A stretch of 64,000 bases of DNA from Siderastrea radians (taxonomy: Eukaryota; Cnidaria; Anthozoa; Scleractinia; Rhizangiidae). The position numbers and the translations under genes are program-made. The notes under the pieces were generated by a model, which was not told the origin of the DNA, searched no databases, and saw only the letters and a program-made list of their open reading frames with translations. The stretch is taken from the NCBI GenBank assembly GCA_964017195.1, contig OZ024890.1:66204367-66268366 (forward strand), given 5' to 3'. Below, piece after piece: positions 17,070 through 63,998 of the stretch. Every line of letters begins with the position of its first letter. Within the stretch, counting starts at the first letter, position 1.

Positions 17070-18220
17070 GAGCGGTTTGCTGTAAGAACCGACTAAAGGT
17101 ATGCAAGATAGAAAAATCCGATTTTCTCAAAATCTGCCAGAATAAAGGCTTTGGTGAACTAGTTCTAAAAATATAAGTTTCAGGTCGTTTAGGTTTTTAT
17201 TTATTTTTTGGTGAATATTTTCGTTTTTTGCCCTTCGCGGCAGTCAAAATCAACGCCAAAATAGTGACTTTTCCGGAAGCTCCTGTTCAAATATTCAAAG
17301 CGTCCTAAATAAGATTAACCCGAGGAGTTAAAAGATCTTATTTTCTCTGTTTATTAGCAGTGTCAAAGCTTCATGAAAAGCGAACGTGAATTTTTAACGG
17401 AATTTTAAAATTTATACCCAGCAACGGTCGTTAGCGACAACCCAATTTAGGCTAAATTCAAGGCTCAAAAAAGCACTCTGGTACATGGCTTTACACAACG
17501 AGACTATACTCTGGGAAAGAACAATCACTTCAACTAAACATCGGCCGAAAAACATTTTGGGACAAATGAAACGGGGAATTTTGAGAGCGCTTTGAAAACA
17601 GGCTACTTGAGTGATAGGAGCGACCCTTTGACCTTTCATGTCAACGGAAGTCAACACACAGCAGCTCTTAAAATGTGACTTTCCTTCGCCAGAATACGAG
17701 TTTGCTTAGAATGTTTTCAAATAGAGAAAACTAGGATTTTGAATTTGGAGGCCTTTGTTCCCGATAATGAGCGATGTTGGGCAATTTAGAGAAGTATGTT
17801 ATGAAATTGACCTACTCTGTTTATCACCGAATTATACATTCAAAGTCTGTTTACCACGGGAATGCGGAATCAATAACGAAGTAAAAACCCGATTCTTGAA
17901 ATGTTTAGGAAATAACTCTTACCTAAGTGAGCTTTTCCTGGCTGGAAACTGCAACTTTCATTGCAAAACACATAGCAAGATCGCCGAGCCGTGTTGCAAG
18001 CGAGTTGTCAAATGCTTCTACAGTGCGGCCGAGGTTCCCTATGTTAACAATTAACCAGGTTTTAGGCCCGCATAGCGTGCAGTCGCAAAACAACACTATG
18101 GTGACGAACGCTTGTGCTTGATAGGAAAAAAAAGCAGGGGAAAAAGGAAAAAGAGAGGTTTTATTAGATATATACTTATTATTATATACATTTTTTTACG
18201 TTCAAACCGGTGACACGTAC
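17070..18220 (+). repeat. Left terminal inverted repeat of the TTAA element
   Basis: Pairs with 21474-22634. An ORF at 17767-18054 (Cys-rich, about 95 aa) lies in it, but the right arm has an 11-nt insertion that breaks the same frame. It is probably non-coding. Confidence 0.85.
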
Positions 18221-21473: not shown

Positions 21474-22634
21474 GTACGTGTCACCGGTTTGGATGTAAAA
21501 ATATATATATAGTAATAAGTATATATGTAATAAAAGCTCTCGTTTTCCTTTTTGCCCTTCTTTTTTCCTATGAAGCACAAGCGTTCCTCACCATAGTGTT
21601 GTTTCCGACTGCACGCTATGCGGGCCTAAATCTGGTTAATCGTTAACATAGGGAACCTCGACCGCGCTGTAGAAACATTTGACAACTCACGTGCAACACG
21701 GCTCGGCGATTTTGCAATGAAAGTTGCAGTTTCTAGCCAGGAAAAGCTCACTTAGGTAAGAGTTATTTCCTAAGCATTTCATGAATCGGAATTTTACTTC
21801 GTTATTGATTCCGCATTCCCGTTGTAAACAGACTTTGAATGTATAATTCGGTGATAAATAGAGTAGGTCAATTTCATAACATACTTCTCTATCGATTCTC
21901 TAAATTGCCCAACATCGCTCATTATTGGGAACAAAGGCCTCCAAATTCAAAATCCTAGTTTCCTCTATTTGAAAACATTCTAGAAAAACAAGCAAACTCG
22001 TATTCTGGCGAAGGAAAGTCACATTTTAAGAGCTGCTGTATGTTGATTTCCGTTGACATGAAAGGTCAAAGGGTCGCTCATATTACTCAAGTACTGAAGT
22101 AGCCTGTTTTCAAAGCGCTCTCAAAATTCCCCGTTTCATTTGTCCCAAAATGTTTTTCGGCCGATGTTTAGTTGAAGTGATTGTTCTTTCCCGAAGTATA
22201 GTCTTGTTGTGTAAAGCCATGTACCAGAATGCTTTTTTGAGCCTTGAATTTAGCCTAAATTGGGTTGTCGCTAACGACCGTTGTTGGGTATTAATTTTAA
22301 AATTCCGTTAAAAATTCACGTTCGCTTTTCATGAAACTTTGACACTGCTAATAAACAGAGGAAATAAGATCTTTTAACTCCCCGGGTTAATCTTATTTAG
22401 GACGCTTTGAATATTTGAACAGGAGTTTCCGGAAAAGTCCCGATTTTGGCGTTGATTTTGACTGCCGCGAAGGGCAAAATACGAAAATATTCACTAAAAA
22501 ATTAATAAAAATCTAAACGACCCGAAACTTATATTTTTAGAACTATTTCACCAAAGCCTTTATTCTGGTAGATTTTGAGAAAATCGGATTTTTTTATCTT
22601 GCATACCTTAGTCGGTTCTTACAGCAAACCGCTC
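21474..22634 (-). repeat. Right terminal inverted repeat of the TTAA element
   Basis: Reverse complement of 17070-18220, sharing the inner end GGTGACACGTAC and the outer end with TTAA border. Confidence 0.85.
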
Positions 22635-23610: not shown

Positions 23611-25244
23611 AGGGACGGACCATTAGAAAAGTGATGGGGGGGATGGGGGATTTTTAGCCTGCCAGAATTTTTTTGGGGGACCATTTCCTGTGCAAGAATT
23701 TTTTTTTTGGCTACAGCCCTATATGCATGAATTTTTGTTTTGTTTTACTAAATACATAGCTTGTACTGTTACGTTACTTTACATTTTTAAGTTTATTTTA
23801 TTACAAAACACTTTTTAATAATGTTCGCTTTAAAATTTAGTTTAAGGAGGTTTCAAAAGTAAATAGCGATTTATAGTGAACAATTGTATAATATTATTGA
23901 TATACATGTATGGATTTTTTATAAAAGACGTATTCATATGAAATGATTTGATACAAACAGTGGTGTCCAGAAAGATTAATTTATAAAATATACAGTACAT
24001 ACACTGTTATTTCCTTAATTTAAAAACAATTCTTTTCAAAAACGTAGCTCATAAATTTGCCTTTAAAACTTTTGATATAAAATACATACAGGTACCTTCT
24101 AACCCTTTGCTGGGAAGTTAAGGGTTATAATTTAATGTAACAGCTTTTTGAGGATGTAGACACAGTGAGAGAGTGCTAAAATGTCAAAAACGCACCATAT
24201 ACAAACACACGTAAGCTTCAAACGGATAAGGATCGAAAACCACATTTGACAGTTGGCCACCTTTGATTAACCAGTAGAAATCCTGGATTTTTTATCCATA
24301 CAGTGGGTATAAATACACAACGGGAAACGTTTGCCAAACAGAATGCCTTGCCATTCTCAAAACGTACATGAGGTTGCATAAGAGCAACTCGCAAAGCCAA
24401 TCCCGGCAACTGATGAGACCCATGTGGAGATTCGAAACCATGGTCTTGCCTGTACAAATCGGCAGTCGAAAGACTTGCTTACAAAAGGAGGAAACATATC
24501 AAGCTCCATAGACACGAAACTCGCAGTTTCGAAAGAGGCTAATTGTTAGACATTTGACTGAACTCAATGTCAGCAAACGGTGCCAAGGCTCAAACACGTT
24601 TTAATCAGTTAATGGCACTTTATAAAACCAAGACAGTCATTGCAACGACAAATCTTACGAGCCACTGTTCATATCCTTTCTTAAAAATCACATACTTGTC
24701 AGTGCAAAAATATTAAGAGGCTACATTATCTAAATGTTTCCATTGTTAGAAGTCGTGCAGGCCTGTCGCTCCTTGCTACTCCCAACTTAAACCAATTTCC
24801 CTTGGGCTTGGATTTGCCCTTCACTCATTTACTATCGGTTATTTTGAACTCCCTCTATTTCAAACTGTTTTTGTTTCCCCCGACGGTTCAAAATAACGGG
24901 GTTGAACTGTATGACTATGACTATAAAAACAACAAAAATTTGTTCCAGGCGAAGGTGTCCCCCTCCCAACAAAAGAAATATTAATCCTGAAAACAATATT
25001 TTATAGCATCCTGGCAGAGCCCCAGAAAATTTCCAATTTTTTAAACACTGGAGACACTACTTGAGCACTTTGGCAGAACAAATTATGGTTTCATATCAAA
25101 ATGAGGCCCATCTTGTGCACGAATTTTTTTTCGGACACTTTCCCTTGCATGAATTTTTTTGTTCGGACATTTTCCCTTGCATGAATTTTTTTTTGTTTTT
25201 TTCCCCACCCCCCCCCCCCATCACTTTTCTAATGGTCCGTCCCT
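23611..25244. mobile_element. 1.63-kb non-autonomous inverted-repeat element
   Basis: Terminal inverted repeats of about 30 nt are near identical: AGGGACGGACCATTAGAAAA then GTGATGGGGG at 23611-23640, and its reverse complement ending at 25244. Poly-G/poly-C runs follow on the inner side of both. The interior has no transposase. Near the right end a unit with CTTGCATGAATTTTTTT and GGACATTTTCCC is repeated about three times (25112-25195), and a related unit lies near the left end in direct orientation. No clear 8-bp duplication is visible, so hAT membership is only a guess. Confidence 0.75.
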
Positions 25245-26833: not shown

Positions 26834-27111
26834 AAGTTTTGCTGTTGACCTGCACCGCTCCAAAGCGGCTCTGTGATTGGTCCGCTTTGCTCCGCCTCGT
26901 GCATTTCCGTACCGGGTGTACCGAGCCAATCACATCACAGATTTTCTCGAGGGAGAGGTGAGAGTACCCTGGGAACGGGATTTCTCCACTTCTGAGATTT
27001 TTCTCTACAGCAACAACTCGTTTAATTTACGGCTTTTCTAAATTACATCTTTCTTTGGCTGTTTGCTTTCGTTTGGTTGGTACAAAACGCTTGCTAAACA
27101 AGCATACAACA

Positions 27112-27373
27112 GTACCGGCTGTACCGAGTGTACCGAGCGTACCGAGTATACCGAGCGTACCGAGTGTACCGAGCGCACCGAGTGTACCGAGTGTACCAAG
27201 TGTACCGAGTGTACCGAGTGTACCGGTTGTACGAAGTGTACCGGTTGTACCGAGTGTACCGAGTGTACCGGTTGTATCGAGTTTACCGAGTGTACCGAGC
27301 GTACCGAGTGTACCGATTGTACCGGCTGTACCGGCTATACCGAGAGTACCGAGTGTACCGGCTGTACCGAGTG
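27112..27373 (+). repeat. 9-bp minisatellite, about 29 units
   Basis: Unit GTACCGAGT with variants GTACCGGCT and GTACCAAGT. Because the period is a multiple of three and has no stop, all frames are open and the apparent proteins are artefacts. Confidence 0.95.
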
Positions 27374-27374
27374 C

Positions 27375-27960
27375 TCTTGTAACTTATTAAAAGATCTTGA
27401 GGATTCATATATCCGTGTTGCTAGATTGAGCCATAACATTAGGCCATCTGTCCCAAAGCATGAAGTACTGAGCAAGGCTAAATGGAACTCTTTATCTTCG
27501 ATTTTACATAAGGAGACTTGCTTGCATTGCCTACCAAACAAGGGGCGGATCCAGGGGGATGGGTGGATTGGATTGCTAGCCATCCCCCTCTTTGGGGTCG
27601 TTTAAGCCTGAAATTATACAAGGGAACAAAACTATCACTGAGGCGATTTTGTCTCGGATTGTTCCCATATCGTTATATCGGGTCAGCCCCCCTCCTCCCT
27701 CAAAAATCCTGGATCTGCCACTGCAAGCTTACCAAAACCTCAACCCAGATTGCATGAGGAGTCTTTTTACAGAACATATATCCAGCCATAACTTAAAAGA
27801 GAATTTGAAATTTGAACACACACGTTCTGAGTCTAAAGCACTTAATTCATTTACCCACTAGGCCAGTATTATTTGGAATAGTCTACCAGTTCAGCAGAGT
27901 CATGCCAAATTCATATGACTTAATGGGTCTAATTTCCTTTGGATCTTACTCTACAGTAAC
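27375..27960 (+). pseudogene. Non-LTR retrotransposon (CR1-like) C-terminal remnant, split by a MITE
   Basis: Reading 27375-27538 gives a stretch with DSYIRVARLSHNI and EVLSKAKWNSL. Reading resumes at about 27727 and reaches SFTH, a stop, then SIIWNSLPVQ. These match in style the region C-terminal to the reverse transcriptase of cnidarian LINEs. The reading is broken by the MITE at 27539-27723 and by stops. It directly abuts the minisatellite on the left, which has replaced the upstream part. Confidence 0.6.
27539..27723. mobile_element. 185-bp MITE inserted in the LINE remnant
   Basis: The ends are imperfect inverted repeats: GGGGCGGATCCAGG on the left and CCTGGATCTGCCACTG on the right. Host sequence on both sides resumes the LINE reading. 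CTACCAAA (27531-27538) and TTACCAAA (27729-27736) may be an 8-bp duplication with one mismatch, which would suit hAT. Confidence 0.6.
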
Positions 27961-29039: not shown

Positions 29040-29205
29040 TAACCATCGATGTAAAATCTCAATTACATTTGTGATTGGGGGCTTTATTACATTTGTGATC
29101 AATCCTTATTACAATTAAGGGCTTTATTAAATTTGTGGTCAGTCGTTCTTACATTTGAAGATCTATGACATTTGTGACCAATTATTACGTTTGTGGCTGT
29201 TCCAG
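29040..29205. repeat. Degenerate ATTACATTTGTG repeats
   Basis: About six loosely spaced copies of TTACATTTGTG(A/G)TC, some alternating with GGGCTTTATTA, end about 80 bp before the second minisatellite. Confidence 0.6.
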
Positions 29206-29286
29206 GGTATCACTTAGGCAACTCTTTTCCATCGAAATTTTCAAACGATGGAAAGAAATTCCTCTTTACTGCCCATTAAAAAAAAC

Positions 29287-30074
29287 GGGTACACTCGGTA
29301 CACTCGGTACACTCGGTACACTCGGTACACTCAGCACAACCGGTACACTAGGTACACTCGGTACACTCGGTACTCTCGGTACACTCGATACAGCCGGTAC
29401 ACTCGGTACACTCGGTACAGCCGGTACACTCGGTACTCTCGGTACACTAGGTACACTCGGTACGCTTGGTACGCTCGGTACACTCGGTACGCTAGGTACA
29501 CTCGGTACACTCGGTACGCTCGGTACACTCGGTACGCTCGGTACACTCGGTACAGCCGGTACACTCGATACTCTCGGTACACTCGGTACAGCCGGTACAC
29601 TCAGTACTCTCGGTACACTCGGTACACTCGGTACGCTCGGTACACTCGGTACAGCCGGTACACTCGGTACTCTCGGTACACTCGGTACGCTCGGTACACT
29701 CGGTACAGCCGGTACACTCGGTACTCTCGGTACACTCGGTACACTCGGTACGCTCGGAACACTCGGTACGCTCGGAACACTCGATACGCTCGGTACACTT
29801 GGTACAGCCGGTACACTCGGTGCACTCGGTACACTCGGTGCACTCAGTACACTCGGTACACGCGGTAAACTCGGTACAACCGGTACACTCGATATAACCG
29901 GTACACTCGGTACACTCGGTACAGCCAGTACACTCGGTACACTCGGTACACTCGGTACAGCCGGTACAGCCGGTACACTCGGTACACTCGGTACGCTCGG
30001 TACACTCGGTACAGCCAGTACGCTCGGTACACTCGGTACAGCCGGCACACTCGGTACACTCGATACAGCCGGTA
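29287..30074 (-). repeat. 9-bp minisatellite, about 87 units, inverted relative to the first
   Basis: Unit GGTACACTC on the plus strand, the reverse complement of the unit at 27.1-27.4 kb. Variants GGTACAGCC, GGTACGCTC and GGTACTCTC are interspersed in higher-order patterns. All six frames are open for up to 300 codons for trivial reasons. Confidence 0.95.
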
Positions 30075-30381
30075 GAACCTAGAGGTTCAACTGGTCTTCT
30101 CGTTCTTAAGGAAAGGGTCTCCCTGCACCAATCGAAAGCGGCACTATGACTAGCTTGTTAGCGAGAAGAATAGGATACTTTGCACGAAATGAAGTGATAT
30201 ATGAAGAAAGGGGACCAAATTGTTGGTTTACTAATAAAACAAAGAAGTCGACTTCAAAGCCAATGTGAAATAATCAACGACACATGTGCCACATCATTTC
30301 GGGAAAAAAATATCCTATTGTTCTCACTAAATAGCCAATCACAGAGCCGCTTTGGATCGGTGCGGGCCTGCTCAAGTTTTG

Positions 30382-31380: not shown

Positions 31381-31389
31381 TCTAACCCT
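31381..31389. repeat. Target-site duplication, left copy
   Basis: TCTAACCCT, identical to 43320-43328, directly abuts the left end of the 11.93-kb transposon. Confidence 0.9.
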
Positions 31390-31407
31390 CAGGTGGTGTG
31401 CGTGCTA
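31390..31407 (+). repeat. Left terminal inverted repeat
   Basis: 18 nt, an exact reverse complement of 43302-43319. The transposase ATG lies 35 nt further in, so the promoter probably overlaps the terminal region. Confidence 0.9.
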
Positions 31408-31441
31408 AGGTCGCAATGCATTATTTTGTCACATTTCCAAC

Positions 31442-34400
31442 ATGGCGGAAGATTCTGGCGGTGGGGGTGAATATTCGAGGTAAGTTTGTTCATCATTTTC
31501 TTTGATTTTCGCGGTTCTTTTCTCTGCTCTTTCTAATAATTCTTTTCTTTAGTAATCCATAAATACATTTGTGGCATTTTGATTATAATTTCTGTCGTTT
31601 TACGACGTAAATTTCTACAATTATCGAACACGGTAAATTTCTCACATTTCCCTCTCTGTTGAGTCGGTGAGAATTTTTTGTTATTCACGACTTTTGAGAG
31701 CTGGTGCTTGGCCTTACGATTTGATAATTATAAAGTTGAGATATTTTACCCTATAGAAACCATGATGCACCAGTATGCACCAGCCTTTTTACGTCGTTTT
31801 GGGCCAAGTGAAATGTTGGCTTTTTTGCTTCTGTTCGCTGTGGTTGTGATCGTAATCGTGACGTGTCAAGTTGGCAAATGAGCATTATCATTTCGAGATG
31901 TAGTCTATCCTTTGAAACTTATAATACCTTATAACTAAATGGTTTGGCTCTGTATCTTTTTTAGGGCTCGGAGAACACTTTTTCGGCAAGAAACTGCCAC
32001 AATTGTTCAAAACGACCGTCCAAAGCGACCCTGGGTTGTAGAAGAAACGCGTGCACTGGTCATGTACATTTGTTTGTATGGCCCTGATTCGGCGTTAGAC
32101 GAGTGGCCGACAGCCAGAAATCCGGCCTTTTGGAATGGCTGCGCGGAGGCCGTTTCAGAAACGACAGGCTGCCCCAAAAGAAGCGGTAAGTAGTGTGCGT
32201 GTCTTACAGAAAAAAAGTCAAAGTTGATAGCATCTATCCAGGATAGACATAAGTCCCTGAAGTTCTTATTACTAATTTGTCGTTTTGAGGTAGCAAATAA
32301 AGTGTTAAAATATTGCAGTTTAAGTTTAGTAGGGTATAACATTTTATTTCATCAAAGGTTTTTATATTTGTGTTAAGTTTTGCTATATCTTGATATTTTA
32401 GGTGAATCATGCAGAAGCAGAGTGCTGAAGTATTTAAAGAATGAGTTTCCAACTCTCTCAAAAGCAGAAGAATACTTTGAAGTGGACTACTTCACAGAGG
32501 ATCCTGTCCCAAATGTGGCACCAGTGGCAAATGCAACATCAACCCCAAGGTCTGGTCAACAACCTGATCCCCTGGTGGATTCTTTGTCGCCTCTGTTTTT
32601 CAGTCCACCTCATGGGAAAACAACCCAAGCAAGATCTGGTTTGACTGTTGGGGATGCAATTGTGGAAGTGTGCACTTTATTCAAAAAAATGTCCTTGCGA
32701 CTAAAAAAGCAGTTAGTGACATACTTATTCAGACAGCTTATAAGAAATGTTGTGGGTGATTTTGGTTTCTTGAAATTTGTCAGAAGAGATTTTCTGGACA
32801 TTGCACTGCAAGCAATGAAAAAACTGTACTGCTCCCAGAAGAACAACCTCGTCTATTTGTTGTGTAAATGCTTTCTTCCCCCTGACGACCAGCCATGCAA
32901 TGCCTCTGACACAAGACTACCTCTTGATAGGATGCCCTTTGGTCTTCTGGACTATAACATTCATTTTTTTGCTGCAGAAAGCACTGTTCATCTTGGAACA
33001 GAACCCCATTATGCTCGGTGGCTAGAAAGTATGTATGCCCATTTTGGGCACAAGTGGTTGTGTTTGTTCCGGGGGCCAACATGGCAGTATGAGGAGGAAG
33101 ACCATCATCAGGTTCAGCAGAGGGAGGTTGATGTTTTGGAAATGGCACTACAAGTGAGTGACATTTCACTGTCTGTAGACAGTGAAGATGTAGAAGATGT
33201 AGAAGGTTGTGTGATGGAAGGTGGCGTGGGTGAAGAAAGTTGTGGTCAGAAAAGGAAAATTGGTGAAGAGACAGCAAACCCTGCAACTGTCCATGGGGCT
33301 TCAACTACAAGAAGGGCAAATGTGTCAACTCTGTGGTCTCGACTTGATCATGATGATATTACAGAAATCAATGAAGCAGCAGAAGACCCCAAAGCTGTTC
33401 AGGAGGGTGCAGGTGTGGCTCCACAGCAAGTGTGGCAGAAACAGAATAGTGGAATATACAATCCGTTGAAGGTAACCATATACAAACAGTTCATATACTG
33501 AACAAGGGCAGTATTCTCTATTCACAGCATTCATCTATTCAAAGCATTCAAATTGAGTTGCCCTTGACATCAATTAATCATAACAAAAAAATTATACTGT
33601 TTCTTTTGACAGGCTAAAGTGAATGTTGCTTGCCTTGGAATTCGTCAGTTGCAACTCAGGATAAAAGCAAGTGGCTTTTCTAGAGATACTGGTGTTCAGG
33701 TTAGACACTTGTCATAAATGTTCTGTTTAAGCAAGAGAACAAAATATTAACTTTTATTTAAAGCAAAGTATTGTTATTTCTTGACCGATATTATTATGCC
33801 CATTACAGTGTACAGTATGCATACAGTCCTGAGCATACAGTCCTTAGCAAACTTTCTTTGTTAATTCTATGGTAAAAACAAGATCAGCCTGTGCTGTATT
33901 TTAATTATTTTTTGTATGGTAAATAGATGCTGTTATTATAATTACTATTATTATAAGTAATTATTATTATTACATGTATTATTACTATTATTATTATTAT
34001 TATTATTGTTGTTGTTGTTGTTGTTGTTGTTAGAAATGTCCTAATAAAAGCAACATTAAAAAATTATTGTACTATTTAAAGTAGATTCCCGAGACTTGTT
34101 ATAATCCTTATTTCTGTTTGTCTTTATATGTAGCTCACTCTTCTTAAAGAGGCACAGAAATCCAACCCTTCTGGACGTTGGTGGATAAAAGCTGACCCCT
34201 GTGATGTGAGGAAAGGGTTAAGAGAGTCTTTAAGACATGAGTGGAATGGTGATGAAGACCTTGGTGATGGTACCCTCCAAAGGCTCCATACTGCTTACAT
34301 GAGGCAGCGCCAGTTCATAACAGGTCTTGGCCTAAAGAACAGGGAAGCAGTACTTGGCCAAGATTTCGATGTCCTGTTGGAGGGCTTGACTGCTGATGAA

Positions 34401-37400
34401 ACGTTGTTAAAGCAAGGCAAAGAGAAAGTGAGGAAAGAGTACGAGGAAAAAAGGGCCAAGCAGAGATCTTCAGAGGCAGTGATGATGGCTCTTGCATGGG
34501 ACTTGACTGGCTTTGAGGAGCTGCTGGCACAGTGTGTAACATTCCAAGATACGGTACGCCATCTGAAGGCCAGACTCAGTCTGCCAAGACCTGGGCAAGG
34601 CAACATCAGAGCAGATGTCTCTAATCTGAGGAATGACCTGTTGACCTACACAAAGAACCTGTTTGGAAAGAAGAGAACTGCTGCCACACACCTTTTTGTT
34701 TTCATGATTGCGGATGAGTCCCGTAACATGAAACCTTATGCTGTTCCAGTAAGGGTCCTTCCATTCAAGTCCATCAAAGATAACAAGGTTAGAGAGCTGG
34801 GAGAAGAACTACAGAATGTGATGACAAGTATTGGAATGCCGGTTGTGGGTAAGATGACATCTCCTAATATCACTGTTGTATTTGCCTTGCAGCAAAAAGT
34901 ACAACTGTGAACCACTTTCATTCCTTTAGGACCCAATACCATCCAGCATCAACTTTTTCCTTAAACACTACCAATGATACATCAAATTGGCCATGAGAAT
35001 AAGGGAATTGATCACCAAAGACAAAAAATATAAGACAGCAAATTATTGTTTATTACCATGCAAAATATAGACCAACACGGGAAAGAGGGAGGACAATACA
35101 TATGACAATACATATGTGGAAACCGGGTTGTAAAATATTATAAATGTAATGTTTTGATGTATATCGACATTTCTGACATTGGCTGTTGAAATCTAGTTTG
35201 GACACTGTAGATGGGTACCAGTGAATTCAATTGTTAGGAAACACTTAAGAAGACGATTTACGTCTCTGGAAGCTTTAGGCACTTATTGGAAGGAGGGTGC
35301 TAAAACAAATCTTTACGCTAGTTAGCCTAATACAACCACATTTTTTTCTTTTAATTTAATCTTTTAGGATTTGTGACAGATGGAGAGTTCAGTTCTCTCA
35401 GGACAATGGGGAATTCAAGACCAATCCATATAATCCAGCTAATCAGTGATGCAAGAGCTGAGGCCCGCTCTACGCCAGTTACTCGCATTGAAAGCTATTT
35501 CATTTTAGGCAGAGATGGTAATTAAATTTTACTTTCATGGAATACCAAATACGTAATTTATATATTTACAGGGACACTTTATAGGCTTCATAGGCATTTA
35601 TATGCATTGTTCTTTTTGCAATTCATTGTTGTTGTGTATTTATTTAGTATCTTTCCAGTTTCCTAACAGTCTATGAATACATCTGCACAGTTATTTAAGA
35701 GCACAATCTGTAAGGCTTATTTGTTTATAGATTTTGCAACCAGAAAATGACTTTGCTTTTCAATTCATGCTTTAGGAAATCCTATTAGACAACACCCTGC
35801 CATTCCCCTGGCAGATGTCCAGTGGCTCCATGAGTTTGTCAGTCACGAGGGTGTGCCATTTGACCGTGCCATCTTTATTCTTCGTCGACGGCTGTTTCCA
35901 CACTATTATGATCCACATCCATGGACATCAGGTAAACGTTTTCTTTTTCATTTCTAACAAATTATACCAGGAAGGAAAAAACAACCCAGCAAGGTTTCAA
36001 TGGAGCACCCTTTTCATGTGCAATGTGGTTGTAGGAAGGGGTGGGAGGGTTACACACTTATGCACTTTCTGGACTACCATATTTACTAGCTATTAAGCCT
36101 ATTCGTGAAAGGGGTGGGGGGGCTAAATGGAGGGGAGTTATGAAAGGAAGTGTGGTATATCATAAATTCTGCACTTAAGTTACGGCCATGGATGGCAAAT
36201 TTATATCTTCAAAAAGAGGAGAATGCATAATACTATGGTATGAATGATCTCATATAAGCGAAGTTTTAACATTTCCTTTACCAATATTTATGATAAACTG
36301 AAATTTTTTTTTACATTACTGTTTTATAAATATATAAAGTGCAAGTCCTGAATCCGTTATTACAGTAACTGTTTTATTTCACTTAGCTATATGTTTTATG
36401 TCCACTTTGTTTTGCCACAGAGAAGACAGAAACTACCACCTCTGTTCTCAAGTCCATATTGGCTGTATACCTGTTCCGGCAAAAAGTGAGAGAGCTAAAA
36501 GAAAATGGAGTGGATTTCTCAAAGCATCTTGTGGTACCCGAGATTGATCCCCAGACAGGAGAATCGATCCACCAGAGGGAAGACCACAACCATCTCCTCA
36601 AGCGCATCATTGCATGCCTGCGAGAGGGATTGATACCAGGAATTGATTTGTGCCATTTCAGAGAAGCTCTACACGACCCTCACACTGGCTTGACCTATGA
36701 AGCTGTTACTGGGAAGAATAAGCAGTCAGTGCCAGATTGTGAAAAAATGATCTCTCCAGGAGTAATTTCTTTCATGGAAAGCAATGGTTATCATGAGGAT
36801 GCCAAAGTCATCCAACTTTTGCACAATTGGCATAAAGCAGTTGATGGCCGTGGGCTGACTGAAGAAGAAAGATCAGAGCACTGCAAAAGTTTGCTTCACT
36901 GGATCCTTGAAGACTGGATACCTTGGGCTGGAGATGGAAACAATTCCGACTATTCATTGCTGGATGTCAACAAGTAAGATACATGTACATTGCATCTAAT
37001 TTAACACAGAAAAGATTTAGACATCTTCTGAAAAGCCTCCATCCTCCCCCCTCCCCCCCCCCCCCCTCCCCACAATACCTTTACAGCATCTGTTAAACAA
37101 AAAGGATTTTATTCCAATTTGCTGTTTTTTTAGTCACACTTGGAGTTCCTACTAGTTTTGGTGACAGGTTTATTGTATGTAGCCTGCGTGGCAGACGGTC
37201 TACACCACCAGTATAGTCCTATATCTAGGTTTTGAGTGACAGGTCGGGCTGCACTGCAGGCTAATTGTATGTGAAGTGGTTCAATCTTATCTTGGATCCA
37301 ACTTCCAACATCCTTTTGTTTTGTTTCCATATGATAATAAATGGAAATAAATTGAAAAGACACAGGTCTATAAAAGTAGATGCAAAGATAAAATTAAACC

Positions 37401-37920
37401 ACAACAAATTTATTTCTTTTACAGGCCCCTAAAGGGGATAAGGGGGATGACAAGGGAAATCATCATTGGACTCGTGGCCAACATAGAAACAAGGGAGCAG
37501 CGCCGTGAAGATTATGCTGCTAGGATGCTTCAACCAGAGCATCCACGTGCCTCTTCCACTGATGATGTAGAGGGCATCATCTCCTTGTTTCATGAGGTGT
37601 TAGGAGCAGTCTTCGACCTCAAAGAGTTCTTCGATGAATTTCCAAAAATCTTGAACGAGTTTACGAAACGAATTGACCCTGACTGCCCTTTTTATTATTG
37701 GACAGGCTGCCACACTCGTTTTCAAGACTTCCCACTACCATCGTTCAATCAGCCTTCACAAAGTGGCACTGAAAGGCTGGACCGTGTGATTTTGTCAAGA
37801 AGAGGTGACCCTGGAATCTTTGTTGCTAATCGAGCTTCCCTCCCTCAAAGAGGTCAGCTGACTGTACGAGCAAATTTTCACAGGGCTCCAGTCGATTTGC
37901 CACCACAATTTAGTGACTAA
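31442..37920 (+). CDS. Putative DDE-type transposase with SANT-like N-terminus (9 exons, 1161 aa)
   Basis: Exons: 31442-31479, 31965-32185, 32402-33471, 33613-33699, 34134-34848, 35368-35517, 35776-35931, 36421-36973, 37425-37920. All introns are GT-AG, phases match at every joint, and the sum is 3486 nt, ending at TAA. The start is AACATGG. Residues about 31-105 form a SANT/Myb-like, Trp-rich segment (RPWVVEETRALV...WNGCAEAV...CRSRVLKYL), likely DNA binding. Residues about 650-720 look like an RNase H fold core: hydrophobic strand then D666 (FVFMIADES), a second strand (PYAVPVRVLP), and D715 in GFVTDGEF. A possible third residue is E1046 in STDDVEG after a long insertion. An acidic region lies at about 345-370. 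The catalytic triad is inferred, not proven. It should bind the terminal repeats and cut in the nucleus. Confidence 0.8.
33931..34031. repeat. (ATT)n/(TTG)n microsatellite in intron 4 of the transposase gene
   Basis: Interrupted ATT units followed by about nine TTG units; intronic, with no effect on the reading frame. Confidence 0.9.
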
Positions 37921-39547
37921 TTATTGGTTTAGTCCATTGTGCTTCAAAGACAATCCCATTCATAAATTCTATATAGTCAATAGCCAGCCTTTAAGCAGCT
38001 ACAATCGTGGTCAATTGGTTGAGGGACAGTTAGCCTTTTCTTAATCTTTTCGTGAGCAATTTGAAAATACGGTAGGCGATAACATAAACCCCCCAAAAGC
38101 ATTTTACAAAGTTCTTCCCCCTCAAACAATGTTGAATTATAGAAACTGTACAAGAAATCTCCGAGATGTGCTGGACTCATGACAGTCAACATTACTCTTG
38201 GCGGGGGGGGGGGGGGAGTAGATATTATTGACATTACTAGAAATTTGGCCTAGTGTCCCAAGCTATCTGGCCACAATTGTAGCTCTCAGATACAAGAACA
38301 GTAGTCCACAACTGACCTGGCAAATTTGATAGATCCAGAGCAGTAAAGGTATACACTTAGTATAAAATGTAACATGGACCCCCAATTGACAGCCAAGTAT
38401 GCTCTGTACCAGTATAATGAGACAAGTACATTTGAAATGGTTACCATGGAGATCAGTTCTTAATTCCCAGTATATAAATTTCCATGACCGATTAAAGACA
38501 AATTACATTTGAATTTATCATATCCTTAAACCAATGATTTTTTGTTGAAAATAGCAATAACTACAATTATTTTATTCCAAACTTGCAGTTTGATAGTCCT
38601 TTTCCCAGCTTTTCCAAACTAAACCAGTGTGAGAATTCTTATTTTTTAACTGCAGATAAATAGAAAACAAGGGAAAAATTCAGGGCCCTCTGTAGGTAGC
38701 AATGAATACCACTACAAGTAAAACTTCGCAAATACATTTTTATTGAATTTTCAATTTTTTATTACATTGTTGTACATGTAAATGTTGCTCAGTAAATTTG
38801 GCTCTGATTTTAGAATACGCCTTGTTTTTACATGTAAATATAAAAATTATTTGACATATTCAGCTTTTTTTCCGAGGGTAGGGTGGTGGAGTTTATGATC
38901 TAATGATACTATTATGTCATGACTATCTTAAACAAATTCCATAAATCTTTCGCTGCTCTCGTACTTTATCATGCCAAACCAAATGAGAGGGAAATGCCAG
39001 CTAAACTTTGTGCCATTGTAATATGACAAATCCAACATTGTCATACATTGGTCCAATATTGTTAATGCTAAGCAAAATGTTTGACTTAAAACAACTTTTA
39101 TCTGGCAAAAAATGTTTCAAACAATCTGACACGGTGGTGGTAGAGGTTCTGTCTTACAGATACACTATTGAACCAGCAAACAGTCCTCATTTGGACAACA
39201 ATGTTAGAATGTTCAGCTGGGGGTTAAATAATACCAAAAAAGGTCAAGTTATATAACTCATATGATAGGACTCCATATTTTTCATTTGTTGTATGCTCAA
39301 TCATCTTGATAATGGAATAACCAAGCAATATCCATATCCCCACCACAGAGGGTCATTGGAAATTCTGGGGGGGGGGGGTTTAAAAGGCCAAAATTTATAA
39401 AGGAAAGTATGAGCTTAAACTGGAATTTCCAGAGGGTGGGGGGGGTCAAACTAAAAACCCTCTGTGGGGGGAGTATGGATATTTTCTGGAACAATACAAT
39501 ATTAAAAAACAGTAACTACAGGAAAACACCTGTTGTCTCTTGACTCT
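37921..39547. other. Non-coding spacer between the convergent transposon genes
   Basis: No supported ORF. It contains poly-G tracts and the MITE at 39327-39483. The 3' ends of both transcripts should lie here, but no clear AATAAA placement stands out. Confidence 0.5.
39327..39483. mobile_element. About 157-bp MITE inside the transposon
   Basis: Terminal inverted repeats read AATATCCATATCCCCACCA...GAGGGT on the left and ACCCTCTG...AGTATGGATATT on the right, with further inner pairing through GGAAATTCTGG/CCAGAGG and G-runs. Its position in the spacer leaves both genes intact. Confidence 0.7.
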
Positions 39548-42500
39548 TTACTTCACCTTTTTGCTGGCCCTTATTACTTTTTCTTCCCACTGTCCTTTTC
39601 TGGTGACATTGATGGTTATATAGTATCCAACCCGCGAATACACAATGCAAAACTTAATATGTTTCACATCAATGCTAATAACAGAATGGGTTTTAAGAAG
39701 AGGATGAATAAATCTAGTTAGTTCCTTTGCAATATATCCAATTTTTGCCCAGCCACTTCCATAATCTATAAACACTGCAATAGCATTGCTGTCATGTTCA
39801 TTTTCTGGTTCTCCTTCAATCTTTGCAATTACAGAATCAACACCAACAGCTTTTGCAGCCTCAAGGTGCTTTTGATAGGTGCTGTTGTATGTAACACCCA
39901 TCACCTTAAAGGGCAAACAATGGTTTACTTGATCAGTCTCTGGATCTTCCTCATCAGAGATACTCTCTTCTTCTTGATCTTCACCCCCATCAGAATTTTC
40001 ACAGTTGAGATCTTCAGTTGCAGCTGTGTGCAAGCTAGTAAAGTCCCAAACAACTAACAAGTCCTCGTTTTCAATATTGATGTGGCAGCTAGACAAGCAC
40101 ATAACTTCAATAGGGAAGTGGTCACCAAGTACTGCACCAAATTTAATCAGTCCTTGCACCTGCTTTCCATTTAATAGGAATGTGGCCCTCTGGAAATCCA
40201 CTGACAAAACAGGGAAGCAGGGAATTGTCCATGTTAAGTTTGTTGGGTCAACAGTCAAAATCTTCATGGATGTTGAAGATGCGTAGTTGCCTGTGTGAAA
40301 AAAAGGGATACCTCAGATAAAATCTTATTATAAAAAAAGGGGGAGGGAGGGGAAGAAAGGGGTGGAACTAGGAAAATGCCAGAGACTGAAGATTTCGAGC
40401 CAAGCTGTCTACCGTACAAAGGTGCCCTTCTTTTAGAGTGTCTAATTACAGATGATTGAGAGAATGTATGCTGGAACCAGCCAACAACTGCTGTCTGCCT
40501 TGTAGAGGTGTATGCTCATAGACAAAATGAACTTGACATTGAATAGCTTACCAGATATTATTGGAGTCCCACTTGCTGCAATTTTTTTGGATATCAATGG
40601 TTGCTCCTGCAAAAAATAGTTAAACAATTTAAGCAGGATTAACACAATACTGGAAATGGCAGTCTTTTATCTGTGGCTACACAATTAATTTGGATTATCT
40701 ACCTTTGCCTTTACATTACAAGTCAATTGCAGGAAAACATGTAGTGGGTTAAGTCCCTTTGGAAAATTTTCGGGTAAAGGACCAGCTCTCATACTGAGCA
40801 CTTGTCAATAATATTTATTTCATACTAAAAAAAATAATAAATAAATAATCTTTTTAACTTTGTAAGATGTTCCTTTGAAACAAATTAACATACCTTGGTT
40901 GGGATAGGATACTGATTCAGCTGAACACTCCTGACTTTGGGATCACTGTTGCCAACAGCCTGATGTAATGCTTGGGAATTGTCAAACAATCTTAACTGTG
41001 GTTAAGGAAGACTACTGTGCTCTAGCACCACTACTAAAGTCTAGCTATTAACAGGGAGTCCAGAATTTAATGGGGAAAAAAGGAAAATTGTATGTCTTAA
41101 ATTTTTTAGCAGTTAAAATATAAATTATGCATCTGAAACTGTATACGGTGGGAAAAAGATAACTAAAAAATCTATGAAAATATGCTGACCACATTGGGTG
41201 GTTGTCTGTAAAGCATGGTTAACTTTCAATCACTGAATATAATGACAACGTCTTAAGAACAAGCAGTCAAGCACATCAGATTCATACCCAGTCAATATAA
41301 ATCTGATTTTTTGCCAGGCATATGGGAAAAGATCAAAAATAAACAACAAGTGGCCACTAAGTTGGGGATTTTCTAATCTTAAAGCGGGCCTGGTTACTAA
41401 CACTCTGTAGCGTAAATCACCTGAAGTGTTATTTCATTTCTTGAAAAAATAATTTGCTAGTAAACAGTCACACTGTATGTGAAGTTAAAAAGGATACTGT
41501 CCACAAGCAACAAGGTCTTCATTTGAGCCAGTGTCTGGTGTCCAGGGATGGAGTGGCATCAGACAATTTTCACTGACATTAAAAACTGTCTGGTGCCTGA
41601 AAATGAATTCCGCTCTACGGAGATCATTGATGTAGCCAGGTGGTGCATTAGGGTTGTTTGATAATACGTCTTTGTAACCACCTTGTGTGACAATATCCTT
41701 TGCGCGCTTTATCCCAATACCACGAATGTTCTTTAAATAATCACACCCAGCCACAATGCACATGGTCTGGAAATTGGTTATTTCCATGTGGAGGTGGTCC
41801 AGAGCCTTGCTCAACTTGATCATATCTGCCCCACCATTGAAATCCATCTTGAAAAGAACCTTGTTACAGAAAAGTAAATATTTGAGAGCAACCTTGGATT
41901 GTTATTGTGGTTGTAACTTTTTATTAGTAACGTACGGTTTATGTAGCTGAGAAGTCTTGTTAAGCGCTGTTGGTTTATTGGTAAAAATAACGCTATAAAA
42001 ATAAGTATCATCATCATTATTAATATTATTATTGTTAATGTTATTGTTATTATTAAGTTGTTTTCATAGTTGGTGTTTATAATTTTTCAACATGAATACA
42101 ACTTTTAGATGCAGTGAAAGCCAAAAAGCCAATAAATGAATAAGCAAGATATCACATCGTTACCACAAAAAATAATACCTATGATAAAGCTGTATCTACC
42201 TTGGAGCAACCATATGCCAGTAAATCCGAATCTTCAGATACTGCAAAATCTGCTAGATTACTTTCCAGTAGATGAGCAATTTGAGGATCAGCCTCGTAGG
42301 GGGACACCACATACTCGATCCCTCTTTCTCTACAGACCTAGAAGAGATATTGTAGTACTGTATTAGCCTGATCGATTAATTAAACGATTAAAACGACAAC
42401 AACTGAGGGACTAAACACGTAATTTTCTAACCTTGATCATGCCCATTATTTCTTCAAATCTTACTCGGGCCGATTGAGCTTTGACTTTCCTTGCCTCCGC

Positions 42501-43126
42501 TGTTTTTCCCTGCTGCTCAAGCTCATCAGCTTTTATCGACTGTTCTCTTCTGATTCTACAATGTGTAAAAGGCAAGTCCATAAGTTATTGCCGTGATCTA
42601 TCACACATAGCTGCCACTTCTCACAAGCTACGCAGAACGAGAACGTCTTAAAACACAAACAAACCCTTCCGCACAGAAGAATGGCCTTCTATGGCCAAAT
42701 AGCAGCAAAAAGCGAGATAAATTAAGGTTATGTCACACTAAAAATAATGTCAGAAATGCTGAAAGCTCACCTTTCCCGGCGCTCGTTCTCAGTGAATTTT
42801 GCTGGCAGTGGAGAGCCATCGAACACGAAAACAGGAGTGATGTTGAAGTCATCTAAAAGATCTATCAACTTGACCAAAACCTCCAGGTACCTAGTAAAGC
42901 AACATCGCAATGTTTCTGGATGTGTTATTTAGCTTTAAATTTCATTTCATAAGACTGGCACAAAATTTTCTTACCTTCTGAATGTCCCATAACACTGATA
43001 GCTCACAACGAGCACTTTGTGTAGCCAACAAGAGGCATCAACAGCCGCCGTTTGTCCGGAGAAATCGCGAAGAGAAACTCGCGAAGTACAGTTTTTTAGA
43101 AAAGGCAAGAGACAGTTAATTCCCAT
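39548..43126 (-). CDS. EXO1/XPG-family nuclease fused to a HIRAN domain (8 exons, 596 aa)
   Basis: Exons on the minus strand: 43126-42975, 42890-42771, 42555-42432, 42337-42200, 41859-41498, 40990-40894, 40606-40552, 40290-39548. All joints are GT-AG, phases agree and the sum is 1791 nt. The N-terminus MGINCLLPFL matches the EXO1/FEN1 start, where Gly2 follows the initiator. Metal-binding acids are all present: D30, D75 (FVFDGSPLP), E147 and D149 (YEAD), D168 and D170 (EDSDLL), D218 (GCDYL). An H3TH motif follows (IRGIGIKRAK, about 223-232), then an EXO1-like GQ...ALHQAVGN segment. The C-terminus has a beta-rich region, an acidic linker (442-470) and a HIRAN domain (about 475-587, EPENEHDSNAIAVF...IGYIAKE). 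XPG nucleases cut flaps and 5' ends, and HIRAN in HLTF binds 3'-OH DNA ends. It may process transposition intermediates in the nucleus. Confidence 0.85.
42004..42055. repeat. (ATT)n microsatellite in an intron of the nuclease gene
   Basis: Interrupted ATT/GTT units between the exons at 41859 and 42200. Confidence 0.8.
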
Positions 43127-43301
43127 TACAAAAAAATCACCAAAATCTAGCAGAAAAGCGAGATAATTTTCCAAAAGTTTCCTCCTTCGACGACACGCAA
43201 CTGAAAATCTTGCTACGGACATAGAGGTGAGATGTTCACACATCGGAGCGTGAATGCGTAATGGCTCGCATTACAATTTCGCCCACCAGGCATTGCGGGT
43301 G

Positions 43302-43319
43302 TAGCACGCACACCACCTG
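43302..43319 (-). repeat. Right terminal inverted repeat
   Basis: Exact reverse complement of 31390-31407. The nuclease ATG lies 175 nt further in. Confidence 0.9.
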
Positions 43320-43328
43320 TCTAACCCT
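43320..43328. repeat. Target-site duplication, right copy
   Basis: TCTAACCCT, identical to 31381-31389, with no mismatch. Confidence 0.9.
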
Positions 43329-43420
43329 AGTCACATCTTGTAATGTCATTAAATATTGTTTTGAAGCTTTACCTGACAGTGGACTTTTTTTCATTAATTT
43401 ACCAGACCATTTCAGTAAAA

Positions 43421-44470
43421 ATGGGAAACTCGTTAAAACCACAGAACAAGACTCAAGATGTTCTTCTGTCAGAAAAGGCGAACATCGTATGGAGCACTAT
43501 CTTTGCTTTGGTGGCACTCGTCATTGTGGCAGGAAATTCTCTCACAATTGCTGCTTTCACTACAAGACGCCTTGTTCGGAGACGCACGCACTTCTTTCTC
43601 ATCAGCTTGGCCGTAGCTGACATGATGGTCGGGGCAGTGGCGATACCGCTTTACATCTACTTAAGCCTTCAAGCGCGTTTACAAAAGGGAGCTGTGCATC
43701 ACGTGTTTGAGGCGGTGGACATTCTGTCTGGTCTCGCATCGGTGTTCACTCTGGGAACGATTTCTGCTGAGAGACTTTTCGCTATTGGTTGGCCACTAGT
43801 CCATCGAATTTTACGAAAACGTTTTTACTTCACTCTGATAGGCCTTGCTTGGTCTTCTGCTTTGGTTATATCTATGATAAATTTGCTGTATCGTTACAAA
43901 ATAGTACCTTACTTTGCTACTCTCGATATTGTACTCACTGCCCTGCTGACGTCATTTGTTATTATCTGCGCTGCATACATTGGCGTTGGAAGAGAACAAG
44001 ACAAGAAACTTGCAAAGACATTATCCCTCGTTACTGGAGTGTTTGTCTTAACATGGTTACCTTTTCAGACTCTGTTGCTCGTTGTCCATTTCTGTCTTAC
44101 GTGTCCAATACCACCGCAAAACGCGGTAAACTTTATCAAGCTTCTGCAGTACTGTAACTCATTTATGAACCCTATTATTTACTCCTTAAGAATGCCAGAG
44201 TTTTGCAAAGCAATGTCAGAACTCTTTAACTGTCGTTACAATATGGTCAACGATGAGATTCCCTTGAAAAATATTCGAGGGGAGACATTGAACACAGTTA
44301 CTGGTATTCTTGGATGTTACTCTTCGTTGAATGTTCGCCTTTGTATGGGGACGGAAAATATCGTATCATCAGAGTTAAATTCTTCAACGTTTAGACGAAA
44401 ACTTTTTAGACGGTCTAGCTCAAGGAATAATTCTAGCCGCAGAAATTATGCAAGTGTAACAGTAGTTTGA
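43421..44470 (+). CDS. Class A GPCR 2, orphan
   Basis: A 349-residue receptor starting at ATG 43421 (AAAATGG context). An upstream in-frame ATG at 43343 is rejected because a splice acceptor (TTTTTTTCATTAATTTACCAG, then a second AG at 43415) lies between them. An N-glycosylation sequon is at N9 (NKT). TM1 has GNSLTIAAF, TM2 SLAVADMMVG, TM3 ends SAERLFAI (E117-R118 in place of DRY), TM6 LTWLPF, TM7 NSFMNPIIYSL, so this is the only one of the three receptors with a full NPxxY. Extracellular loop 3 has C225-x2-C228. The C-terminal tail is Ser/Arg-rich. It is closest to receptor 1 (identical GNSLTIAAF). The transposon right end is only about 100 bp upstream, so the insertion probably lies in the 5'-UTR intron or promoter. 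A possible AATAAA lies at 44735-44740. Confidence 0.92.
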   Translation: MGNSLKPQNKTQDVLLSEKANIVWSTIFALVALVIVAGNSLTIAAFTTRRLVRRRTHFFLISLAVADMMVGAVAIPLYIYLSLQARLQKGAVHHVFEAVDILSGLASVFTLGTISAERLFAIGWPLVHRILRKRFYFTLIGLAWSSALVISMINLLYRYKIVPYFATLDIVLTALLTSFVIICAAYIGVGREQDKKLAKTLSLVTGVFVLTWLPFQTLLLVVHFCLTCPIPPQNAVNFIKLLQYCNSFMNPIIYSLRMPEFCKAMSELFNCRYNMVNDEIPLKNIRGETLNTVTGILGCYSSLNVRLCMGTENIVSSELNSSTFRRKLFRRSSSRNNSSRRNYASVTVV

Positions 44471-52040: not shown

Positions 52041-52064
52041 GGTACTGTCGGAATTTCTTTGAAA

Positions 52065-52982
52065 ATGGACTTTAACAAATGGAACACCTTCTGGACTGTT
52101 TCCTACGGAGTGATGGCACTCTTAATCATTGTTGGAAACACTCTTTCCATCTTAATACTACTCAAGAGAAAGCTTCGCAAGCGTCCTCATTTCTTGTTGA
52201 TCAGTTTGGCCATCGCCGACCTGTTGGTTGGCTTATTTGCAATGCCCATTTATATGACCACTGTCATCTCGGACCAAAAACTTGTGTCAAAGGTCGTTTC
52301 TGATTGCGTGGACATGTTTACTGGATTTTCTTCAGTGTTTACCTTGGCGGTCATTTCTCTTGAAAGACTGAACGCTATTGTCCGGCCACTTCGTCATCGG
52401 CAGCTTGCCTTACGGAGCTATGTGGTCGGCATAGTAACGCCATGGATCCTTTCCTGCATGGTGGCATCAACTCGAGTGCTGCTTGGTTTTGTTTTCATTA
52501 CGATTCAACAATTCTTAATTGTTATCATCATCAGCTTATCAACGCCTCTGTTGACATCATGTTTTGCTTATTGCATCATTTGGAAGAAGCAAAGAACCCG
52601 AATACCAAACAGATTCAGAGAGAGGCATGAGTCCAGGTTCTCGAAGACGGTGTTTTTGATAACAGGAACTTTTATCTTGACATGGGTTCCTTTCCAAGTT
52701 TTAGTTATTGTGTTAAACAAGTGTTTTTCCTGCAGGAATGTTCCAGTTGCAGTTGTTTTCGTAATCAAGCTTCTTCAGTTTAGTAACTCTATTGTAAATT
52801 TTCTAATCTACTGTTTTAGGATGCCAAGTTATCGAAGAGCGCTATTAGCCATATTTCCTGGTTGCAGATACAATCGTGATCGAAATCAAGGTGTTTTTCC
52901 CTTTGTTGAAAATCCAACGAGTAGCATCAATCTAATTTCCTTTTCGAGCACACAATCTTTATACCGTGCCAGGCATCCGTGA
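52065..52982 (+). CDS. Class A GPCR 3, orphan
   Basis: A 305-residue receptor from ATG 52065 (AAAATGG). A TTG six bases upstream is not used as a start here. A strong acceptor (TTGTTTTCTTTGTAG, exon from 52041) lies 24 nt before the ATG, so a 5'-UTR intron exists, as in receptors 1 and 2. The extracellular N-terminus is only about 10 residues. TM1 has GNTLSIL, TM2 SLAIADLLVG, TM3 ends SLERLNAI (E100-R101 instead of DRY), TM6 LTWVPF, TM7 NSIVNFLIYCF (NPxxY degenerate). Extracellular loop 3 carries CxxC (KCFSCRN). Intracellular loop 3 is basic. Ligand is unknown. The chemistry resembles melanocortin/adenosine-type receptors that lack the usual TM3-loop 2 disulfide, but that is a weak analogy. 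Confidence 0.92.
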   Translation: MDFNKWNTFWTVSYGVMALLIIVGNTLSILILLKRKLRKRPHFLLISLAIADLLVGLFAMPIYMTTVISDQKLVSKVVSDCVDMFTGFSSVFTLAVISLERLNAIVRPLRHRQLALRSYVVGIVTPWILSCMVASTRVLLGFVFITIQQFLIVIIISLSTPLLTSCFAYCIIWKKQRTRIPNRFRERHESRFSKTVFLITGTFILTWVPFQVLVIVLNKCFSCRNVPVAVVFVIKLLQFSNSIVNFLIYCFRMPSYRRALLAIFPGCRYNRDRNQGVFPFVENPTSSINLISFSSTQSLYRARHP

Positions 52983-62259: not shown

Positions 62260-62265
62260 TTCTTA

Positions 62266-62290
62266 TTTATTGAATGCAATATTTTTTAAA
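62266..62290 (-). promoter_or_regulatory. Promoter-like motif before the polymerase gene
   Basis: On the coding strand TTTAAAAAATATTGCATT followed by CAATAAA, ending six nt before the ATG. The core AAAAAATATTGCATT is also present before the small gene (62651-62672). Two near-identical copies, each just upstream of an ATG, suggest a shared late or early promoter of the element. Confidence 0.6.
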
Positions 62291-62328
62291 CTATTTTTTC
62301 ATTTCGTAAAACGTGAAATGAAAAAAGT

Positions 62329-62640
62329 TCAAGCAAAAGACAATCTGACTTTATTTCCATCCTTATCCACAAATGCATTTCCACAATTTGCGAAATACTG
62401 AATCGAACCATGCTTTTTTCCCAACACTTTTGCACACTGATAGATGCTTTTACATTTTGTAACAACCTGTGTATCAACATTGGTAATCAGCACCTCCTTT
62501 GCGTTACTTGGTCTGTTATACAATTCTTCATCAAGATTTAATACTTTTCCCAGTTCTGCTTTTGAGAGCTTTTCAGCATTTTTTATTTTTTTACTCACAG
62601 CCATTCTACGCATTTCTTGATAAGTTAAAAATTTTGTCAT
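62329..62640 (-). CDS. Small NUMOD1-like protein of the Polinton (103 aa)
   Basis: ATG at 62640. The N-terminal half is basic and helical (KKIKNAEKLSKAELGKVL). The C-terminal half, about 58-103, has SIYQCAKVLGKKHGSIQYF followed by a short beta-like end, which resembles the NUMOD1 helix-turn-helix found next to homing nucleases. It would bind DNA. It lies between integrase (39 nt) and polymerase (69 nt) with its own upstream promoter-like motif, so it is probably expressed. The function in the element is unknown. Confidence 0.6.
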   Translation of the reverse strand: MTKFLTYQEMRRMAVSKKIKNAEKLSKAELGKVLNLDEELYNRPSNAKEVLITNVDTQVVTKCKSIYQCAKVLGKKHGSIQYFANCGNAFVDKDGNKVRLSFA

Positions 62641-62650
62641 TTTATTTTTA

Positions 62651-62672
62651 TTTAATGCAATATTTTTTTAAA
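62651..62672 (-). promoter_or_regulatory. Promoter-like motif before the small gene
   Basis: Coding-strand TTTAAAAAAATATTGCATTA, the same core as before the polymerase, 11-13 nt before the ATG at 62640. Confidence 0.6.
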
Positions 62673-62679
62673 TTCATTT

Positions 62680-63696: not shown

Positions 63697-63998
63697 TGTC
63701 TCTCATTATAAGGAACAGAATCCAACGATTTGACCATTTTTCTGTCGGCTTTGTTTTTGCATTTTTTATCATCTTTGCAAACAGAATAATCAACATCGTG
63801 TTGCATCGCTATGGCATCGGTCCTACCGGTCGGTTCATCGTATATCTCAAGTATTTCCCCTGTTTTTTCATCCCATTTAACCTGATTTTCAAGATCGTTG
63901 TAGGGACCTGTGTATTTATGCCCTGGAAGAGTCCAACCACCTTTTGGTTTAGGGAGTTTTCCAATGGCTTTATGTATATCTAAACTTCCACCGTCCAA
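63630..63998 (-). CDS. Phospholipase A2-like protein of the Polinton (5' end outside window)
   Basis: The ORF is open to the window edge, so the first visible residue is not a true start. At least 122 residues are visible. A glycine-rich LPGHKYTGPYNDL loop is followed by the HDVDY motif (about H67-D68), the arrangement of the parvovirus VP1-type PLA2 domain that also occurs in Polintons, where it is thought to help leave membranes. The conserved tail WIARNMINTKQKLGLG precedes the TGA. The ORF overlaps the integrase ORF by 67 nt in another frame and ends T TTA AAC TGA. Confidence 0.8.
   Translation of the reverse strand: MDGGSLDIHKAIGKLPKPKGGWTLPGHKYTGPYNDLENQVKWDEKTGEILEIYDEPTGRTDAIAMQHDVDYSVCKDDKKCKNKADRKMVKSLDSVPYNERQWGHWIARNMINTKQKLGLGLN
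63633..63639 (-). promoter_or_regulatory. Candidate -1 ribosomal frameshift heptamer
   Basis: TTTAAAC in the order X XXY YYZ with respect to the PLA2 frame (codons GGT TTA AAC TGA). A slip of one base back enters the integrase frame (TTT AAA CTG), which stays open for 319 more codons. UUUAAAC is among the most efficient known -1 slippery sites. I have not identified a definite downstream pseudoknot. Confidence 0.6.

Follow-up and report, generated by a model that had tools for sequence, protein, structure and literature searches.

Two intact genes that converge between perfect inverted repeats in a coral genome raise the question of what kind of element they form, and of what an EXO1-type nuclease fused to a HIRAN domain would do inside it. 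The genes lie in a 64,000-nt stretch of Siderastrea radians DNA (OZ024890.1, positions 66,204,367-66,268,366, forward strand), hereafter the window, and all coordinates below are window positions. The unit they occupy is 11.93 kb in size (31390-43319) and is very likely a transposon related to P elements. Its fuller description as a complete cut-and-paste DNA transposon, probably autonomous and of a P-related lineage, is judged somewhat more probable than its denial. A sequence-only reading of this DNA had already proposed a complete two-gene DNA transposon, a proposal upheld by the ends, the target duplication, the intact genes and a P-related transposase.

Ends, duplication and genes of the element

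31390-31419, plus strand: left terminal inverted repeat (perfect over 18 bp, 87% over 30 nt)
43290-43319, minus strand: right terminal inverted repeat, pairing with the left end
31381-31389, no strand: left target site duplication, TCTAACCCT
43320-43328, no strand: right target site duplication, TCTAACCCT
31442-37920, plus strand: transposase gene (9 exons, 1161 aa, intact)
39548-43126, minus strand: EXO1-HIRAN gene (8 exons, 596 aa, intact)

The terminal 18-mer CAGGTGGTGTGCGTGCTA opens the element (31390-31407) and its reverse complement closes it (43302-43319; 18/18 bp), and the inverted repeat reaches beyond this perfect part to 30 nt at 87% identity. With up to three mismatches allowed, the 18-mer occurs at only these two sites in the whole window, while 100 shuffles gave a mean of 0.01. 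The 9-bp duplication TCTAACCCT is exact (9/9) and flanks both ends. The two genes run towards each other and leave about 1.6 kb between them (37921-39547), and their start codons are 52 bp (transposase) and 193 bp (nuclease) inward from the respective ends of the element. All 17 exons are open in frame, 15/15 introns are GT-AG, and each gene has a single terminal stop. Thus the perfect 18-bp ends, the exact 9-bp duplication and the two spliced, uninterrupted, convergent genes of the sequence-only reading are all confirmed. The exon models were chosen by reading and were checked by tblastn with proteins of other species (P0001, P0002 and P0003 for the transposase; P0014, P0015 and P0017 for the nuclease). 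This backed all but two of the nine plus-strand exons and all but one of the eight on the minus strand; those without a match (plus-strand exons 1 and 4, minus-strand exon 7) are all short.

Two ordinary host genes caught between chance inverted repeats would likewise be spliced and intact, but perfect 18-bp ends with an exact 9-bp duplication right at the borders, together with the kinship of the transposase to P, make this explanation extremely improbable. Comparison of the element with the rest of the window (blastn, E 1e-3) gave no match, and no further piece of either protein was found elsewhere in the window. Viral contigs yielded 0 matches to a 26-base pattern of the ends and 0 relatives when scanned with the transposase or the EXO1-HIRAN alignment.

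The start codon of the transposase, 52 bp from the transposon end, is contained in AACATGGCGG (31439-31448), which we take to resemble a YY1-type start-site motif; promoter and coding start may therefore overlap.

Kinship of the transposase to P elements

31442-31479, 31965-32185, 32402-33471, 33613-33699, 34134-34848, 35368-35517, 35776-35931, 36421-36973 and 37425-37920, plus strand: transposase exons
32023-32436, plus strand: weak SANT/Myb-like N-terminal region (residues 33-98, across an intron)
34194-34205, plus strand: putative first catalytic Asp, D493 (or D496), at the end of strand b1
34272-34673, plus strand: helical insert of about 130 aa within the RNase H fold (approximate limits)
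35379-35381, plus strand: second catalytic Asp, D715 (VTDGE), aligned with P transposase D303
36421-36973, plus strand: exon with most of the region aligned to the GTP-binding insertion domain of P transposase
36582-36593, plus strand: DxxH motif, D867-H870, aligned with P transposase D339/H342
37570-37572, plus strand: catalytic Glu, E1046 (TDDVE), aligned with P transposase E531

The transposase is related to P transposase by fold, by profile and by the register of the Pfam P-element domain PF21787. It possesses the P-type core of helix-turn-helix, RNase H fold and an insertion like the GTP-binding domain (GBD) of P. A family alignment of 14 rows, the window row included, was compared by hhalign with 22 P rows hand-picked from the 67 P-type proteins found; the score was 51.6 (P value 6.7e-5). 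Among the controls, 100 column shuffles reached at most 26.5, the reversed alignment 20.9, the transposase family against EXO1 15.3 and P against EXO1 21.2. By subset, the score was 57.7 without the window row, 54.3 for a nine-row clade and 43.5 for the window's own five-row clade. Removing the helical insert from the core gave a P value of 1.9e-6, and the N-terminal half by itself gave 1.5e-4 with the second Asp on D303. Against a single P sequence, with no profile, the match was weak (P value 0.05), and in global mode hhalign produced no alignment of the family to P. Searching PDB sequences with the transposase profile returned 6 matches at E 10 (best E 0.023), none of them a transposase.

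The catalytic Asp, Asp and Glu (DDE) and the DxxH motif match P in register, with the first Asp a probable assignment set solely by a structure model of the homologue P0001: strand b1 spans 456-464 in that model, the candidate columns are conserved, and hhalign gave no alignment to P there. The helical insert was placed from helices 488-620 of the same model and transferred via the alignment. The SANT-like/DDE-like protein of the sequence-only reading is recovered in these aligned columns and in weak SANT/Myb matches, to PF00249 in the window transposase (E 0.14) and to PF13837 in the homologue P0008 (E 0.016).

Members of the P superfamily (Drosophila P, 1360, Galileo, zebrafish Pdre2/THAP9) share with the window transposase a helical GBD-like insertion in the RNase H fold, and the DxxH, second Asp and Glu are in register. 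The inverted ends of Drosophila P start with CA. The same start is found in the short inverted ends here and in those of Pdre2 (CATACC...; PMC10983969). Unlike P elements, the window element encodes a transposase with a SANT-like N-terminus instead of THAP and with the extra helical insert, carries EXO1-HIRAN as a second gene, and is 11.9 kb long as against the 2.9 kb given for P (PMC7776569).

Several results weigh against the description of the element as an active relative of P. The hhalign probability was 63.6% for the family and 31.2% for the window's five-row clade alone. PF21787 had no match in the window transposase at E <=1, and its matches in homologues stayed below the curated cut-off (best 22.8 vs 24.6 bits), their register agreeing with P kinship. 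Foldseek with the P0001 model gave 0 significant matches at E <= 0.001, and the match to P came solely from a VIA-align second look at its best chains (970 aligned). The model itself is middling (mean predicted local distance difference test, pLDDT, 58.9; predicted template modelling score, pTM, 0.46), with pLDDT <50 after the first Asp (465-487) and around the Glu (1016-1084). No THAP domain was matched at E 1 in the window transposase or in 13 homologues, some of them N-terminally incomplete; the P protein P0134, a positive control, matched at 1.6e-6. Eight residues of P transposase are reported to contact GTP, namely K385, K400, V401, S409, F443, D444, N447 and D528 (PMC7776569). Five of the eight are altered in the window transposase, V401 and S409 (exon 36421-36973) and D528 (next exon) being retained. 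The N447 column is Asp in 9/9 rows having a residue and the D444 column is Glu, Lys or Leu; the sequence would permit GTP use or its loss. The 9-bp duplication is read from a single copy and lies outside the 7-8 bp of described P elements, reported as 8 bp for P (PMC7776569), 8 bp for Pdre2 (PMC10983969) and 7-8 bp for Galileo (PMC4168063). Transposition activity, too, is a prediction from one copy. The element thus belongs to a P-related lineage and should work in a P-like manner in its core, yet is not filed as a standard P element because it has neither a detected THAP domain nor a 7-8-bp duplication.

Other transposon families were considered in the same light. The duplication of MuDR is 9 bp. 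The sequence-only reading drew a likeness to MuDR from this length and from the convergent plan; both features are confirmed, but kinship of the transposase to MuDR is not supported: no MULE family appeared among Pfam matches at E 1 in the window protein and 13 homologues, in itself weak evidence, and kinship to P was found instead. A suggested kinship to KDZ/Zisupton was abandoned on the same equally weak Pfam negative for KDZ families and on the P kinship. Duplications of 9-10 bp are also reported for AcademH (PMC10045372); the length is compatible with MuDR and AcademH, and nothing ties the window transposase to either.

AcademX was the other likeness proposed, and the nuclease alone is reminiscent of it, AcademX nucleases being of the XPG type like the one here. 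AcademX is likewise reported to be a DNA transposon that encodes a nuclease, but its duplications are 3-4 bp (PMC10045372). Because the duplication here is 9 bp, the element is not assigned to AcademX, and the transposase matches P; with Academ transposases outside the sequence comparison, an Academ-type identity is considered very unlikely.

Kolobok was rejected as a home for the element since it requires TTAA duplications, which TCTAACCCT is not (PMC9587614). KolobokD, E, P and H resemble the window element in combining a C/DxxH-group DDE transposase with an added nuclease or helicase, and in KolobokP the nuclease is on the complementary strand; in contrast to EXO1-HIRAN, the added proteins are described as DnaQ, lambda-exonuclease-like or His-Me nucleases, or RecQ helicase (PMC9587614).

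The EXO1-HIRAN protein and its possible role

43126-42975, 42890-42771, 42555-42432, 42337-42200, 41859-41498, 40990-40894, 40606-40552 and 40290-39548, minus strand: EXO1-HIRAN exons
40894-43126, minus strand: EXO1-type nuclease domain (residues 1-326; XPG_N and XPG_I)
40001-40261, minus strand: middle region, common to coral, sea anemone and amphioxus EXO1-HIRAN proteins in the alignment
39674-39910, minus strand: HIRAN domain (residues 477-555)

Both domains named by the sequence-only reading were found. The nuclease matches XPG_N and XPG_I and scores 189 bits against human EXO1, the homologue P0017 has an EXO1-like fold, and the seven acidic residues of an EXO1-type catalytic core are present (D30, D75, E147, D149, D168, D170, D218). 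HIRAN (PF08797) is matched at E 7.4e-9 with 35.8 bits, above the curated cut-off of 24.7, and the motif PENEHDSNAI resembles PNNPYD around N90/N91 of HLTF, as derived from a printed mutagenic primer. Unlike host EXO1 and the HIRAN of HLTF/Rad5, the window protein fuses the two, lacks the tail of host EXO1 and adds the middle region, for which a low-confidence model has a helix and five strands. Searched by itself against PDB sequences, the HIRAN stretch gave 5 chance matches, every one an antibody chain.

Among the matches listed, both proteins have relatives in Paramuricea clavata (transposase P0004; nuclease P0015 and P0023), Branchiostoma floridae (P0002 and P0012; P0017) and B. belcheri (P0013; P0020), the nuclease relatives being drawn from 120 of 383 matches listed. 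In B. floridae, P0002 and P0017 are probably on one chromosome, because both records are 22,407,120 long.

A nuclease-domain tree was built from 31 hand-picked members of the 120 and the window protein, with 11 of its 32 rows labelled HIRAN-type by us. The alignment A4 holds 16 rows (10 HIRAN-type, P0023 and 5 plain EXO1s); Pfam calls HIRAN in 6 of them, and P0018 ends ahead of HIRAN. In the tree, HIRAN-type proteins form three supported groups, none within a supported 8-row bilaterian EXO1 group. The tree counts 2 changes for the HIRAN-type label, and the rows so labelled formed one branch in 0% of 200 bootstrap trees, the rows being without plain anthozoan EXO1. One origin of HIRAN-type nucleases may be compatible with this tree, as may several. 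The plain EXO1 P0119, which has a long branch, stands beside HIRAN-type rows on a weak branch (50/57). P0019, P0022 and P0026, two from ENA and one from ncbi/lgn, make up a second EXO1-HIRAN group without the middle region.

These relationships bear on whether the element has captured a host-like nuclease gene that it carries as a passenger, useless for transposition. Transposons do capture genes, and the nuclease is EXO1-like in sequence and fold; it could be a passenger. However, the gene is intact, its relatives co-occur with those of the transposase in three species, the middle region is common to corals, sea anemone and amphioxus, and the three HIRAN-type groups fall outside the bilaterian EXO1 group. 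A passenger is thus considered unlikely.

A role in processing transposition breaks is the reading preferred here; its steps go beyond the anatomy, and the substrate and role of the nuclease are predicted from its sequence. In this reading, the transposase would bind to the inverted ends, cut the element out and insert it at positions 9 bp apart on the two target strands, hence the 9-bp duplication. Donor tails of P have 3' polarity. P transposase is reported to make cuts staggered by 17 nt, and the donor break to be repaired by homologous recombination or non-homologous end joining (PMC7776569). If cutting here were P-like, with a staggered excision, the donor ends would bear single-stranded 3' tails. 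For HIRAN, recognition of 3' ends has been reported, the authors of that report themselves having observed a preference for fork-like junctions (PMC4666394). Binding of single-stranded 3' ends by HIRAN would place the EXO1-type 5'-3' exonuclease/flap nuclease at transposition breaks, where it would trim back the 5' strand and so begin templated repair. The donor break would be the most likely site of action, and resection there would favour repair templated by the sister or the homologue, so that the lost copy would be restored. This trimming role at the donor break is proposed tentatively, at somewhat short of an even chance. More doubtful, though possible, is the whole proposition that a deep P-related branch acquired its own break-processing enzyme, tethered by HIRAN to 3' ends and steering donor repair to the template-directed route.

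Alternatively, EXO1-HIRAN might make or trim the non-transferred-strand cut at the ends, with excision shared between transposase and nuclease. Tn7, with TnsA and TnsB, is a precedent for excision split between two proteins; both genes are intact within one element, and human EXO1 structures exist with 5' flap and with 5' recessed-end DNA. However, the DDE columns are kept in the transposase, and P transposase is not known to need a nuclease partner to excise. Even with strand cleavage in P described as of a mechanism not currently known (PMC7776569), a shared cut is considered quite unlikely.

Were the donor-break proposal true, cut-and-paste would become net replication with no waiting for host resection. 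The gain of copies by cut-and-paste elements through donor-break repair is an old question, and a transposon with its own resection-type enzyme would allow it to be tested by removal of one gene. Among the literature matches listed, screened by title and the opening lines of the abstract in a collection with few subscription papers and without Repbase, there was no DNA transposon bearing HIRAN or EXO1. The element also extends P-like transposases to a THAP-less branch in anthozoans, amphioxus and brittle star, and the altered GTP site of that branch bears on the purpose of GTP in P transposition.

Other features of the window

39327-39483, no strand: hairpin-like inverted repeat (27-nt arms, 89%), nested in the intergenic spacer and outside the coding plan

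The remaining open reading frames (ORFs) were assigned by eye. A Polinton/Maverick-like element is suggested on the minus strand at 58180-63702, where one ORF (1360 aa) resembles a protein-primed DNA polymerase B and another (340 aa) an integrase with a chromodomain. Two ORFs at 3147-4287 (minus strand) resemble a tyrosine-recombinase-type protein, and the adjoining ORF at 4105-4815 (plus strand) includes a run of unread (X) residues. An inverted repeat of 517 nt, 96% complementary and 4.5 kb apart (17096-17612 / 22093-22609), is possibly a long-ended transposon, and two 32-nt stretches some 1.6 kb apart that are perfect inverted copies of each other (23611-23642 / 25213-25244) are possibly a small non-autonomous element. 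Short-repeat arrays at 27042-27605 and 29159-30157 are mutually inverted and open in several frames, the second on both strands. Three long ORFs are receptor-like, of the 7-helix G-protein-coupled type: 5062-6174 (minus strand), 43331-44470 (plus strand) and 52041-52982 (plus strand). The second of these begins, stop to stop, 3 bases past the right duplication, which places the transposon directly upstream of it.
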